From Verrucomicrobiaceae bacterium (GTDB taxonomy: Bacteria > Verrucomicrobiota > Verrucomicrobiia > Chthoniobacterales > JAATET01), in the NCBI GenBank assembly GCA_027488755.1, contig JAIYAZ010000075.1, positions 190,492 through 254,491 on the forward strand: DNA of 64,000 nt, written 5' to 3'. The notes under the pieces are model-generated. The model did not search any database and had not been told where the DNA came from. It saw only the letters and a program-made list of their open reading frames with translations. This document shows positions 48,329 through 53,089 of this stretch, piece by piece. The translations under genes and the position numbers were made by a program. Numbering within the stretch: the stretch's first letter is position 1; every line of letters begins with the position of its first letter.

Positions 48329-48517
48329 TCAATCCGTCAGGTCGTCCAGCGCCGGCTCCAGACCCGGCAGCTTGCGCGGTTTGCAGAGCACCTTCGAGGT
48401 GTTCGCCACCCGCGCGCACTTCCGGCAATACCACCGCGGCTCGCGGACGATTTCCGCAAGCGCATCGGCGCGCTTTTCGAGGTCCTTTTTGGACCAGTCG
48501 CAGAGGGTTTTGGCCAT
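48329..48517 (-). CDS. Cys-rich 62-residue protein
   Basis: A 62-residue protein with basic and acidic helices at the N-terminus and then WYCRKCARVANTSKVLCKP. Three cysteines (30, 33 and 44) in a zinc-ribbon-like spacing, with a Lys-rich surround, suggest a small metal- or nucleic-acid-binding protein. It ends one base from the N-acetyltransferase stop (convergent) and starts divergently from dps, so a common regulatory region lies between. No family name is known to me. Confidence 0.65.
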   Translation of the reverse strand: MAKTLCDWSKKDLEKRADALAEIVREPRWYCRKCARVANTSKVLCKPRKLPGLEPALDDLTD

Positions 48518-48552: not shown

Positions 48553-48590
48553 TTGCGAAAGTTGCGATATCACTTTAGAATCATTCTAAA
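48553..48590 (+). promoter_or_regulatory. dps promoter overlapped by a perfect 17-bp palindrome
   Basis: A sigma-70-like promoter reads TTGCGA (48553-48558), 17-bp spacer and TAGAAT (48576-48581). The perfect palindrome TTTAGAATCATTCTAAA (48574-48590) covers the -10 box. This is the 7-1-7 pattern of Fur-superfamily operators: it fits PerR-type boxes and, equally, the iron control element TTTAGAA-N3-TTCTAAA bound by Irr. Binding here would block the polymerase. Which regulator acts is not known. Confidence 0.8.
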
Positions 48591-48600
48591 TCCTGCACCT

Positions 48601-49074
48601 ATGAGCACCACCACCGCCACCAAAACCACCTCCGACGCCGTCGCCAAATCCCTCGCCACCCTGCTGGCCGATTCCTACGCGCTGATGGGCCAGACCCACC
48701 TCGCCCACTGGAACGTAGAAGGCCCAGCCTTCTTCCAGCTCCACGTCGCCTTCCAGGCCCAATACGAGGAACTCTTCACCGCCATCGACGAAATCGCCGA
48801 ACGCCTCCGCGCCCTCGACGTTTACGCCCCCGGCGGCCTCACCACCCTCGCGAAGGGCTCTGCCATCACCGAGCAGACCGTCGGTCCCGCCCCCGCGAAG
48901 GACTTCGTCGCCCACCTCATCGAATCCCACGAAATCCTCGTCGGCTCCGCCCTGGAACTCCGCAAAGCCAGCGAAGCCGCCGGCGACCTCGAGACCCAGG
49001 ACCTCGCCATCAAGCGCGTCCAGACCCACGAAAAAACCCTCTGGATGCTCAAGAGCTTCCTGAAAAACCTCTAA
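48601..49074 (+). CDS. dps: Dps ferritin-like DNA-protection protein
   Basis: The ATG at 48601 gives 157 residues, the size of Dps. The ferroxidase motif is complete in style: THLAHWNVEGPAFFQLH near 32-48, followed by DEIAERLRALD near 63-73. Dps forms a 12-subunit shell that oxidises and stores iron with peroxide. An N-terminal tail with Lys and Thr is present. The promoter carries a Fur-superfamily palindrome and a terminator follows at 49093, so it is a single-gene transcript. Confidence 0.95.
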   Translation: MSTTTATKTTSDAVAKSLATLLADSYALMGQTHLAHWNVEGPAFFQLHVAFQAQYEELFTAIDEIAERLRALDVYAPGGLTTLAKGSAITEQTVGPAPAKDFVAHLIESHEILVGSALELRKASEAAGDLETQDLAIKRVQTHEKTLWMLKSFLKNL

Positions 49075-49187: not shown

Positions 49188-49613
49188 ATGAACGACGCCG
49201 CTTCCGCCGCCCCCGCTCCCGCCCCGTGGCGCGCCCAGGCGGCCCGCGTCGTGGAGGAGCTCTTTCCCGCGACGCCGCCGGAGACCTGGAATGACCTGCT
49301 CGACCTGCGCGCGCACCTTCTTGCCGGGCAGGATTGGAACGCCGCGCTCGACCTTTTCCTCCGCTGCCGGGAGCGGCTCGAAGCCGGGCATTACCTGCCC
49401 TTTTACCGCCTGCGCCGCCTGCTCACCGCCAGTCTGCGCCTCGAGGCCGGCGAGGAAACCGCCGCCCCGCTCCGCCCGCTTGCCGAGCTCCTCAACCGCC
49501 ACCCCGCGTCCCTGGCGGACCTCAAACGCGCCGTTCGCCGCGAGATCTTCGAACACGCGCTCGAGCTCCCGCGCAACGCCCGCGTGCCGCTCCACGTCGT
49601 CGAGCGGCTCTAG
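49188..49613 (+). CDS. Helical protein of unknown function, 141 residues
   Basis: The protein begins with an Ala/Pro-rich stretch, then is almost wholly alpha-helical (for example WNDLLDLRAHLLAGQDWNAA, LKRAVRREIFEHALELPRN). No signal peptide or metal motif is visible. The strong ORF and the operator-like repeat before it make it a likely gene. It is convergent with the metal permease gene and overlaps it by 4 bases. No family is recognised. Confidence 0.6.
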   Translation: MNDAASAAPAPAPWRAQAARVVEELFPATPPETWNDLLDLRAHLLAGQDWNAALDLFLRCRERLEAGHYLPFYRLRRLLTASLRLEAGEETAAPLRPLAELLNRHPASLADLKRAVRREIFEHALELPRNARVPLHVVERL

Positions 49614-50473
49614 GCCGCCGCCGCCCGCCGCACCGCAAACATCCCGCGCTTCGGCGCAAAGAGCATCGCGAGCAGGAATTGCAGCCCCTGCGCCAGCACG
49701 ATGCAGGCGCCCGTCGCGCCGTTGATGAAAAAGCTCACGTAAACCCCCGCCACGCAGGACAACACCGCGCTCGCCGCCGCGATCCCGAGCATGCGCGAAA
49801 AGCGGTCCGTCAACAGCCCGGCCACGCAGCCCGGCGTGATGAGCATCGCGATCACGAGAATGATTCCCACCGCCTGCAGCGAGACGACGATCGTCAGCGC
49901 CAGCAGCGCGAGCAGGGTGTAGTGGAGGACGCCGACGTTCAGCCCGAGGGCCCGCGCGTGGCTCGGGTCGAAGCAATACAGCAGCAGATCATGCCGGCGC
50001 GCGAAGACCACGCCGAGCGTGACCGCGGCCATCCCCAGCGTCTGCCACACCTGCTCCGGCGCGATGCCCAGCAGGCTGCCGAAAAGGATGTGGTTGAGGT
50101 GCAGTTCCGTCTCGATCTTGGAAAACATCACCAGCCCCAGCGCAAAGAGACCCGTGAACACCACGCCCATCACCGTGTCCTCCTTCACCCGGCTGTGCGC
50201 GCGGATGTAACCCGTCGCCACCGAGCAGAACAACCCCGCGGCAAACGCGCCGAGCGCCAGCGGCACGCCCGCGAGATACGCCAGCACGATCCCCGGCAGC
50301 ACCGCGTGCGACACCGCATCGCCCATGAGCGACCAGCCCTTGAGCACAAGGTAACACGAGAGCACCGCGCACACGCCGCCCACCACCGCGCCGACCAGCA
50401 GCGCCTCAAGCATGAAGCCGAACTGGAAGGGCGCGAGCGGGTCCGCCCACCAGAGTTCCCACGCCGCGCTCAT
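49610..50473 (-). CDS. Metal ABC transporter permease (MntD/TroD type)
   Basis: The ATG at 50473 gives 287 residues with about 8 membrane helices. The conserved cytoplasmic loop GWSLMGDAVSHAVLPGIVLA near 46 is diagnostic of the Mn/Zn/Fe ABC-3 permease family, and LITPGCVAGLLTDRF near 219 is also typical. It is the second permease of the operon, coupled by ATGA to the first. Two-permease importers of the TroABCD/MntABCD type usually take up manganese, sometimes zinc or iron. Confidence 0.93.
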   Translation of the reverse strand: MSAAWELWWADPLAPFQFGFMLEALLVGAVVGGVCAVLSCYLVLKGWSLMGDAVSHAVLPGIVLAYLAGVPLALGAFAAGLFCSVATGYIRAHSRVKEDTVMGVVFTGLFALGLVMFSKIETELHLNHILFGSLLGIAPEQVWQTLGMAAVTLGVVFARRHDLLLYCFDPSHARALGLNVGVLHYTLLALLALTIVVSLQAVGIILVIAMLITPGCVAGLLTDRFSRMLGIAAASAVLSCVAGVYVSFFINGATGACIVLAQGLQFLLAMLFAPKRGMFAVRRAAAA

Positions 50474-51330
50474 GCCGGCACCTCCGTCGCCTCGCGGCCC
50501 CGCAGCCGCCGCGTCGCCAGCACGCCGTGCTTGGGCGCAAACACCCACGCGGCCACGAACACCAGCGTCTGCAGCGTGACGATGCACCCGCCCACCGAGC
50601 CGTCCACGAAGTAGCTCGCGTAGGCCCCGGCAAACGAAACGACCGTTCCCAGCGCGCAGGCAATGCCCAGCATGCGCCCGAACCGGTCGGTGAGCAGGTA
50701 GGCGGTCGCCCCCGGCGTGACGAGCATGGCCACGACAAGGAGCGCGCCGACGGCCTGCAGCGCCGCGACGGCGGTGGCGGAAAGCAGAGCCAGCAGGAGG
50801 TAACGCAGCGCGGTGGGGTTGAGCCCCATGGCGCGGGCCTGATGCGGGTCGAAGCAGAAAAGCAGCAGGTCGCGCCACTTCAGCGCCAACACGAGCAGGC
50901 TCACCCCGGAGATGATCAGCACCTGGAGGATATCGCCGTCCGAGATGCCCAGCATGTTGCCGAAGACGACGGTCTTGAGGTTGATGTTGCTAGGGTAGAG
51001 CGAAATCAAGAGCAGGCCGGCGGCAAAGAAGGTCGTGAAGACCACGCCGATCACCGCGTCCTCGCGCACGGGGGTCCGCGCCTTGACGAAGCCCATGCCA
51101 AATGCCGCCAGCAGCCCGGTGAAAAACGCGCCGAGCGCGAAGGGCAGCCCGAGGATCGCCGCGAGCGCCACGCCGGGCACAACGCTGTGCGAGAGCGCGT
51201 CGCCCATGAGCGACCAGCCCTTGAGCGTGACGAAGCACGAGAGGAACGCGCTCACCCCGCCGATGAGCGCACTCACGAACATGGCCTTGAGCATGTATTC
51301 GTAGTGGAACGGCACGAGCAGGGCGTCCAT
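50470..51330 (-). CDS. Metal ABC transporter permease (MntC/TroC type)
   Basis: The 286-residue protein is a paralogue of the downstream permease, with the same loop GWSLMGDALSHSVVPGVALA near 38 and LVTPGATAYLLTDRFGRML near 216. It is coupled to the ATPase gene by one overlapping base. The pair forms the membrane channel of the importer. It starts [18 protein letters not shown], with no signal peptide as expected. Confidence 0.93.
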   Translation of the reverse strand: MDALLVPFHYEYMLKAMFVSALIGGVSAFLSCFVTLKGWSLMGDALSHSVVPGVALAAILGLPFALGAFFTGLLAAFGMGFVKARTPVREDAVIGVVFTTFFAAGLLLISLYPSNINLKTVVFGNMLGISDGDILQVLIISGVSLLVLALKWRDLLLFCFDPHQARAMGLNPTALRYLLLALLSATAVAALQAVGALLVVAMLVTPGATAYLLTDRFGRMLGIACALGTVVSFAGAYASYFVDGSVGGCIVTLQTLVFVAAWVFAPKHGVLATRRLRGREATEVPA

Positions 51331-52193
51331 CAGTCCTCCTTGTCCGTGCGGCGTTCGAGGTGGCCGCCGCGCCCGAAAACGACCGGGCGCTCGTCGTCGG
51401 TGAGCAGCGTCACCGCGCGGCCGTCGCTGTCGTCGACCGTGGATTTATCGAGCCGGAAGTGCCGCAGCGCGCCGCCAAAGGCCCGGGCGAGATTCTCCTC
51501 GGTGAAAACTTCCGCCGTGGGCCCGCTGGCCAGCACGGTGCGGTTGATGAGGACGACCTGATCGCAGAAATCCGGAACCGAGCCGAGGTTGTGCGTGGAG
51601 ACGAGCATGATATGGCCGGCGGCGCGGAGTTCGCGCAGCAGGTCGATGATCGCGGCCTCTGTCTTCACGTCCACGCCCGTGAAAGGCTCGTCGAGCAGGA
51701 TCACCCGGCCGCCCTGCGCGAGCGCCCGCGCGAGGAACACCCGCTTTTTCTGCCCGCCGGAAAGCTCGCCGATCTGGCGGTCGCGATACTCCCACATGCG
51801 CACCCGTTCCAAACTTTCGCGCACGCGCTCGCGGTCCTCCGCGCGCGCCTGGCGCAGGAAGTTCATGTAACCGTAGCGACCCATCATCACGACATCGTGC
51901 ACGCTCACGGGGAAGGTCCAGTCGACCTCCTCGGCCTGCGGCACGTAGGCGACCCAGTTGCGCCGCTGGGCCTGCCGCACGGGCAGGCCGCCCATCGTCA
52001 CGGTGCCGCGCCCGGGCTGGACGAAACCCATGATGGCCTTGAAGAGCGTGGACTTGCCGCTGCCGTTCACGCCGACGAGCGCGCAGATCGAGCCGGCGGC
52101 GAGAGCAAACGAGGCGTCGCGCAGGGCGGTGTGGCCGTTGTTGTAGGTGACGGTTACGTCGGTCACCCGCACGTCGATCGGGGCTTCGTTCAT
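51330..52193 (-). CDS. Metal ABC transporter ATP-binding protein (MntB/TroB type)
   Basis: The 287-residue ATPase has Walker [10 protein letters not shown] (about 38-46), signature [15 protein letters not shown] (about 139) and Walker [13 protein letters not shown]. The H-loop is [12 protein letters not shown]. The extended C-terminus (from about 245) is unusually long and hydrophilic. It powers the importer with the two permeases and the binding protein. The start overlaps the substrate-binding gene stop by 4 bases. Confidence 0.94.
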
Positions 52194-53089
52194 GGCGTGG
52201 TGAATCCCTTCACGATGAGGTCGGCGTTATAGCGAAGCAGGTCGAGGTAGGTCGGGGCGGGCCCGTCGGGGCCGGTGAGCGAGTCCACGTAAAGCACGCC
52301 GCCGAAGCGGGCACCGGTTTCCTTCGCGACCTGGCGCATCGCCTTGTCGCTGATCGTGCTCTCGCTGAACACGACGGGAATCTTCGCCGCGCGCACGGCG
52401 TCCACGACCTTGCGCACCTGCTGCGGAGTGCCCTCCTCGTCGGCGTTCACCGGCCAGAGGTAAAGCTGCCCGAGGCCGTAGTCGCGCGTGAGGTAGGAAA
52501 ACGCGCCCTCGCTCGTCACCAGCGTGCGTTCGTTGGCGGGAATCTCCGCCAACTTCGCGCGCAGCGGGGCGTCGATGGCCTTCAGCTTTTCGGTGTAGGC
52601 GGCGGCGTTCGCGGCGTAGGCGGCGGCGTTGGCGGGGTCGATCTGCGTGAGGGCGCGGCGGATGTTCTCCACGTAAATGACGGCGTTGGCCGGCGACATC
52701 CAGGTGTGCGGGTTCGGCTTCCCGCCGTAGGGCCCCTCGGAAATGCCGATGGGTGTGATTCCCTCGGTGAGCACCGCGCTGGGCACCCCGCGCACGCCGC
52801 CGAGGAATTTCTCAAACCACCGCTCAAGCCCCATGCCGTTCCAGAGCACGAGATCGGCCCGCTGCGCCTTCACGATGTCGAGCGGCGTCGGCTCGTATTC
52901 GTGGATCTCCGCGCCCGGCTTGGTGATGGATTCCACCACTGCCCGGTCGCCCGCCACGTTCTGCGCCATGTCCTGAATGACGGTGAACGTCGTGAGAACG
53001 CGCGGTTTGTCCGCCCAAAGCGCCCCCGCCGGCAGCAATCCCGCCGCCATACCCACCAAACAAACCCGCAGCAATCGCATCATGTTCAT
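52190..53089 (-). CDS. Metal ABC transporter substrate-binding protein (MntA/TroA type)
   Basis: The 299-residue protein has a signal peptide (about 1-26). The four metal ligands of cluster A-I proteins can be placed by motif: His63 (EIHEYEPTP), His128 (PHTWMSP), Glu194 (TSEGAFSY) and Asp269 (YVDSLT). Glu at the third site, as in PsaA and MntC, rather than His as in ZnuA, favours Mn or Fe over Zn. First gene of the importer operon, with a promoter and operator just upstream. Confidence 0.93.

Follow-up and report, generated by a model that had tools for sequence, protein, structure and literature searches.

The dps locus and its palindrome

The window, by which we mean the whole 64-kb stretch of DNA that was analysed (contig C164 of the genome referred to here as G000), carries a gene for a ferritin-like Dps protein preceded by a perfect palindrome that overlaps its promoter (Table 1). 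The dps product matched Pfam Ferritin above the cut-off (3.9e-23) and NCBIfam Dps at 2.1e-19 and 70.2 bits, the latter under the curated cut-off of 114. Small CxxC frames like the one divergent from dps were also seen by eye upstream of dps in G001, G002, G041, and G047. Past dps, the minus strand from 49610 to 53089 holds, by eye, two permease-like frames, one ABC ATPase-like frame, and one metal-binding ZnuA/MntA-like frame, which probably encode a Mn/Zn importer; the best score of the suf-operator matrix (see below) within this stretch is 4.4 bits.

Table 1. Coordinates and basis of the features around the dps promoter
Feature	Position in window	Strand	Basis
Gene for a 62-aa CxxC protein, divergent from dps, common intergenic region	48329..48517	-	Frame 48332-48517; stop codon by eye
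-35-like hexamer TTGCGA	48553..48558	+	Sequence read
Predicted operator, perfect 8-1-8 palindrome TTTAGAATCATTCTAAA	48574..48590	.	35.0 bits with suf-operator matrix
-10-like hexamer TAGAAT, within the predicted operator	48576..48581	+	Sequence read
dps, 157 aa, ferritin-like Dps	48601..49074	+	NCBIfam Dps, Pfam Ferritin

A preliminary description of this DNA had reported a perfect 17-bp palindrome over the dps -10 box TAGAAT with TTGCGA 17 bp upstream, and these coordinates were confirmed; the spacer between the two hexamers is 17 nt, and the ATG of dps lies 10 nt 3' of the palindrome. Symmetry alone is weak evidence, since the window holds five perfect 8-1-8 inverted repeats, the four besides the dps site being G+C-rich. 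Scanning the window for the 17-mer at up to three mismatches gave no place besides the dps site (0.01 expected). The palindrome is not a chance sequence, as supported by its sequence, its place, and its conservation. The exact 17-mer is unique in the whole genome at up to two mismatches, and a relaxed motif was therefore needed for a regulon search. Thus, the genome-wide copies that the preliminary description had proposed to look for do not exist in exact form, but a paired operator does, as the diverged sequence TTGGAATGATTCTTG; because of this divergence, taking a lack of other copies as refutation, as had been suggested, would reject the finding wrongly.

A Fur-family gene at the head of the suf operon

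As noted previously, no Fur-family gene lies within the 64-kb window; a Pfam FUR search of the genome gave four matches, all on other contigs (C27, C167, C52, and C51). One of them (C167:48567-49019), here named FurSuf, is the first gene of a cluster continuing with sufC, sufB, and sufD, whose products all score above their cut-offs (TIGR01978, 344.9 bits; TIGR01980, 596.3 bits; TIGR01981, 232.8 bits). FurSuf belongs to the Fur superfamily, with 82.3 bits to Pfam FUR against a cut-off of 23.1. Its own promoter carries GGAATGATTCT, the core of the diverged copy introduced above, which starts 95 nt 5' of the Pfam match and scores 23.9 bits, and a second copy of the box at 7.1 bits stands 17 nt farther upstream. 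This arrangement of two boxes 17 nt apart before the genome's own regulator (L004:1384-1421) keeps its spacing in three congeners, as if two dimers sat next to each other.

The closest solved sequence to FurSuf is Bacillus subtilis PerR (1.5e-20). FurSuf scored 87.7 bits (best match; cut-off, 180) and 77.9 bits (cut-off, 200) with the NCBIfam PerR models and 68.9 bits (cut-off, 150) and 67.6 bits (cut-off, 170) with the Irr models, so that none of these cut-offs was reached. The preliminary description had favored a PerR-type protein over Irr. That preference stands insofar as FurSuf is nearer to PerR, and it fails insofar as FurSuf is not a standard PerR, having Cys at position 85 (see below) and heading a suf operon. 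An orthologue is encoded by Chthoniobacter flavus Ellin428, presumably a cultivated strain (locus L190, among the best 80 of 587 named loci). Its structure model shows a Fur fold (mean pLDDT, 90.7), with Z scores of 13.9 to PerR 3f8n, 14.1 to Zur 4mtd, and about 13 to 15 across Fur, PerR, and Zur entries.

Orthologues of FurSuf were found in 45 of the 57 genomes of a first sample (E < 1e-38) and in 70 of 288 phylum-wide genomes (1e-25), the latter being only the window's own, same-order, or same-class genomes, with class and order names inferred from locus labels. Labels of the best 80 of 587 named loci point mostly to Verrucomicrobia (Spartobacteria, Chthoniobacter, Limisphaerales, and others); a few say otherwise (Nitrospinaceae for L217, Burkholderiales for L234), and these we take to be misbinned. 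Together, 152 loci were compared, comprising 45 from the first sample, 27 from the phylum sample (the new ones examined out of 30 located among the 70 matching genomes), and these best 80 of 587. Since the 152 include genomes fetched twice, the 129 distinct upstream regions (those of at least 300 nt, leaving out shorter ones such as L114, L233, L205, and L238) are the safer number. sufC (117 loci) or sufB (31 loci) follows the regulator gene at no more than 500 nt in 148 of the 152 loci, the best 80 of 587 included. In four loci, the search pattern detected no suf gene: L109 and L173 run out at or close to a contig edge, L195 has a SufB that was missed, and the fourth is L181. A box with the consensus of about aATTTAGAATNATTCTtgAT, with little information beyond it, was present at 8 to 10 of 10 bases in all 129 distinct upstream regions (again with the best 80 of 587 among the loci), compared with 8 of 127 downstream stretches and 16 of 129 shuffles at 8 or more bases.

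The dps palindrome was compared with this box independently, by a matrix that excluded the window's own genus and drew on 87 distinct suf-promoter sites. The dps site scored 35.0 bits, compared with 4.4 bits for the runner-up in the window and 14.0 bits for the top site of one simulated 3.48-Mb sequence. The dps boxes of the congeners G001 and G002 scored 30.4 and 31.3 bits, and the diverged suf box of G000 itself scored the 23.9 bits given above. One atypical site (L220) had entered the first matrix; with that site removed, the dps site scores 35.2 bits. The earlier recognition of a Fur-family 7-1-7 box over the dps -10 hexamer is supported.

The strict degenerate motif TTRGAATNRTTCYWR at zero mismatches occurs at two places each in G000, G001, and G002, namely fur-suf and dps. 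Judged from these places, katA and ahpC, which the preliminary description had proposed as possible partners, are not among them. In G003, a congener in which no dps gene was found, it occurs at fur-suf and at one site within a coding frame. At up to one mismatch, all hits in the genus numbered 25, while the reversed pattern gave 26, and hits at this level were not used because they show no excess. Up to two mismatches in 18 genomes gave 36 forward and 29 reversed hits; relaxed motifs are not enriched, and the case therefore rests on the location of the best sites. The exact core AGAATNATTCT occurs at 13 places in eight genomes against 1 for the reversed pattern, and 9 of the 13 lie at fur-suf, dps, or sufS; the other four have no assigned target and are in long frames (G003:C134, G015:C161, and G038:C257) or between frames (G045:C264). 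A three-mismatch site on C17 (L002) was dropped because it lies within a long coding frame, as was the G003:C17 site.

Across the 288 phylum genomes, an exact 15-mer was found at 15 places and its reversed pattern at 4. Places assigned by position were dps in G000, fur-suf in seven genomes (G255, G133, G212, G324, G207, G128, and G175), and an ATPase gene in two (G102 and G093); the 5 of 15 without an assigned target (G286, G170, G155, G271, and G291) are about as many as the reversed control's 4. In the distant genomes G291 (L254:1501) and G286 (L241:1501), the 15-mer stands about 100 nt 5' of sigma-70-like genes, called by NCBIfam under cut-offs in L254 and by eye in L241; G286 lies outside the class and is absent from the phylum-sample regulator matches. 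In G170 (L242:1501), convergent frames flank a longer inverted repeat that contains the 15-mer, and a terminator is more probable here than an operator.

Fur-family 7-1-7 boxes overlap between paralogues, and another Fur protein could therefore also bind the dps box. On this account, one of the other Fur-family proteins of G000, whose genome has four such genes, would bind the palindrome, whose resemblance to the suf box would have arisen by convergence. However, the promoters of the other three Fur-family genes of G000 lack the box (best, 6 to 7 of 10), and the strict motif without mismatches marks only fur-suf and dps, so we give convergence very little credence. Instead, comparison of sequences makes it very probable that the dps palindrome is an operator of FurSuf, which would be an autoregulated Fur-family repressor that links Fe-S assembly with iron storage.

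Further candidate targets among relatives

The dps box is kept in both dps-bearing congeners, as TTAGAATGATTCCAA in G001 and TTAGAATGATTCTAA in G002, with -35-like hexamers at the same place (TTGCAG at 17 nt and TTGCGC at 16 nt, respectively, counted by eye). In 197 genomes of the order, 18 dps loci were found, of which 16 were scored (13 loci and L012 by matrix and L015 and L017 by consensus, with L259 and L260 left out), and a strong box was present only in the three of this genus. Ten further loci reached at most 14.3 bits by matrix (G048), and L012 (G038) reached 11.3, both near noise; the consensus matched L015 and L017 at 9 and 7 of 14 positions. The dps link thus rests on three related genomes, because the other scored dps genes of the order lack a strong box. 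Within the genus, the box stands before 3 of 3 dps genes, making dps an addition specific to this lineage.

Other lineages show other additions. Among 18 sufS loci in 12 genomes, the box precedes sufS only in G015, G022, and G045 (genus g13), and the remaining 15, including that of G000, have matrix scores below 0 and no box. In genus g36, the box stands before a gene for a heavy-metal P-type ATPase, with promoters scoring 44 bits. Two ATPase fragments scored 350.6 and 334.3 bits with TIGR01525, above and below the cut-off of 346.25, respectively. The g36 ATPase carries SPC and HEGS motifs, which we take to be marks of P1B-4 iron/cobalt exporters. B. subtilis PfeT, a ferrous iron exporting ATPase, is derepressed by H2O2 via PerR (PMC9993123). 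The suf, dps, and ATPase targets were not seen together in any one genome.

The putative metal site, the proposed mechanism, and known systems

Aligned to B. subtilis PerR, FurSuf keeps His37, His91, His93, and Asp104 and has Cys for Asp85. None of these five positions varies among the 152 loci (including the best 80 of 587). Cys85 was partly selected for in 80 of these loci, because they were retrieved with a pair of peptide patterns and the Cys forms part of one of them; it is likewise present in all 72 loci obtained by similarity alone. The structural CxxC columns are variable (Cys96 in 136 and Cys99 in 130 of the 152 loci, the best 80 of 587 included). These pairs are partly or wholly lost in L134-L138, L141-L144, L146-L153, L155, and L157-L160; in those class members, the first pair reads Asp or Cys followed by Thr or Ser, and the five-residue site with Cys85 is retained. 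At 23 paralogue loci (20 of the 22 weaker first-sample matches and three of G000, one gene occurring twice), position 85 is Glu (17), Asp (5), or Met (1) and never Cys, and the same suf pattern found no suf genes after any of them.

The PerR ligands are His37-Asp85-His91-His93-Asp104, and those of Fur are three His and two Asp/Glu, as given in an excerpt of PMC4866751. By the first of these sets, FurSuf would not be a PerR, since all 152 loci (the best 80 of 587 among them) have Cys85 rather than Asp85. A canonical PerR, in which peroxide oxidizes a metal-bound His and dps is derepressed, would make the suf link only a regulon variant. This has in its favor the closest solved sequence, the four retained ligands, and the presence of Dps and a heavy-metal ATPase among the targets, but the replaced Asp85, which defines the family, the unreached PerR cut-offs, and the restriction of the strict box in G000 to dps and fur-suf lead us to regard it as rather doubtful.

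Cysteine at this position recalls Zur, where it occupies the place of Asp85 (PMC4866751, excerpt; Cys88 in Escherichia coli Zur, PMC4219657, excerpt), and a Zur-like repressor binding zinc through Cys85 would make dps and suf zinc-responsive. However, Zur has no equivalent of His37 in the same excerpt of PMC4866751, whereas His37 is invariant in FurSuf. The targets are Fe-S and iron genes, and a separate Fur-family gene adjoins a ZnuA-like gene in G000 (L006, by eye), so zinc sensing appears very unlikely. By its residues, then, the putative FurSuf site is neither the PerR, the Fur, nor the Zur set.

We propose that a FurSuf dimer on the box would shut RNA polymerase out from the -10 hexamer that the box overlaps, both at dps and, by negative autoregulation, at its own fur-suf promoter. 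The regulatory site would be His37-Cys85-His91-His93-Asp104 (B. subtilis PerR numbering). Peroxide, iron overload, or cluster damage may oxidize the repressor or disturb its metal site and so cause it to leave the DNA; Fe-S assembly would then rise together with Dps, which would store the released iron. Overall, the data suggest that the genus may turn on iron storage in step with cluster assembly.

The release signal is probably oxidative or iron stress, which fits the combination of SUF, Dps, and an exporter better, because iron hunger needs neither storage nor export. Alternatively, FurSuf may sense iron starvation in the classical manner of Fur, with ferrous iron as corepressor and derepression at low iron. 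E. coli holo-Fur does repress suf (PMC8593673, excerpt), but a storage protein and a probable metal exporter would then rise when iron is scarce, and position 85 lacks an Asp/Glu ligand, making starvation sensing an improbable reading. We would therefore order the signals as peroxide or iron overload first, with about an even chance of being right, then iron hunger, and then zinc.

More broadly, it is roughly an even question whether FurSuf represents a new subfamily of Fur proteins marked by a hybrid His-Cys-His-His-Asp site, the class's dedicated repressor of Fe-S biogenesis and a third one beside IscR and SufR, whose thiolate would sense either iron and oxidants or an Fe-S cluster bound to the protein and which could recruit dps and a metal exporter. 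A repressor of the FurSuf type is apparently undescribed so far; among the matches listed in searches of open PMC text, none reported, by title or abstract opening, a Fur-type suf regulator or Fur in this phylum. If true, Fur-type control of suf would be class-wide in Verrucomicrobia, with a metal site between those of PerR and Zur that provides a natural test of how one ligand change affects sensing, and a clear prediction can be offered for C. flavus Ellin428.

Several known systems share parts of this arrangement. B. subtilis PerR has Dps (mrgA) as a target, as is predicted for FurSuf. FurSuf shares with PerR the Fur fold, the 7-1-7 box, and His37, His91, His93, and Asp104, and differs in having Cys for Asp85, in heading suf, and in its predicted control of suf. 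With Zur, it has in common the Cys at the Asp85 position, but FurSuf possesses His37 and the target genes found are not those of zinc uptake. Irr resembles it in iron-linked targets and in the half-site TTCTAA of the iron control element (PMC7540006, excerpt), a comparison limited to the half-site; however, the Irr cut-offs are far off and all FurSuf loci, including the best 80 of 587, have Cys85. SufR of cyanobacteria and actinobacteria is likewise a dedicated regulator encoded by the first gene of the suf operon, with a palindrome in its own promoter, but it is a DeoR-type protein with a [4Fe-4S] cluster and the box CAAC-N6-GTTG (PMC8593673, excerpt), whereas FurSuf belongs to the Fur family. 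By its position and the box in its own promoter, FurSuf would thus occupy a SufR-like role, with repression as the predicted mode of control.
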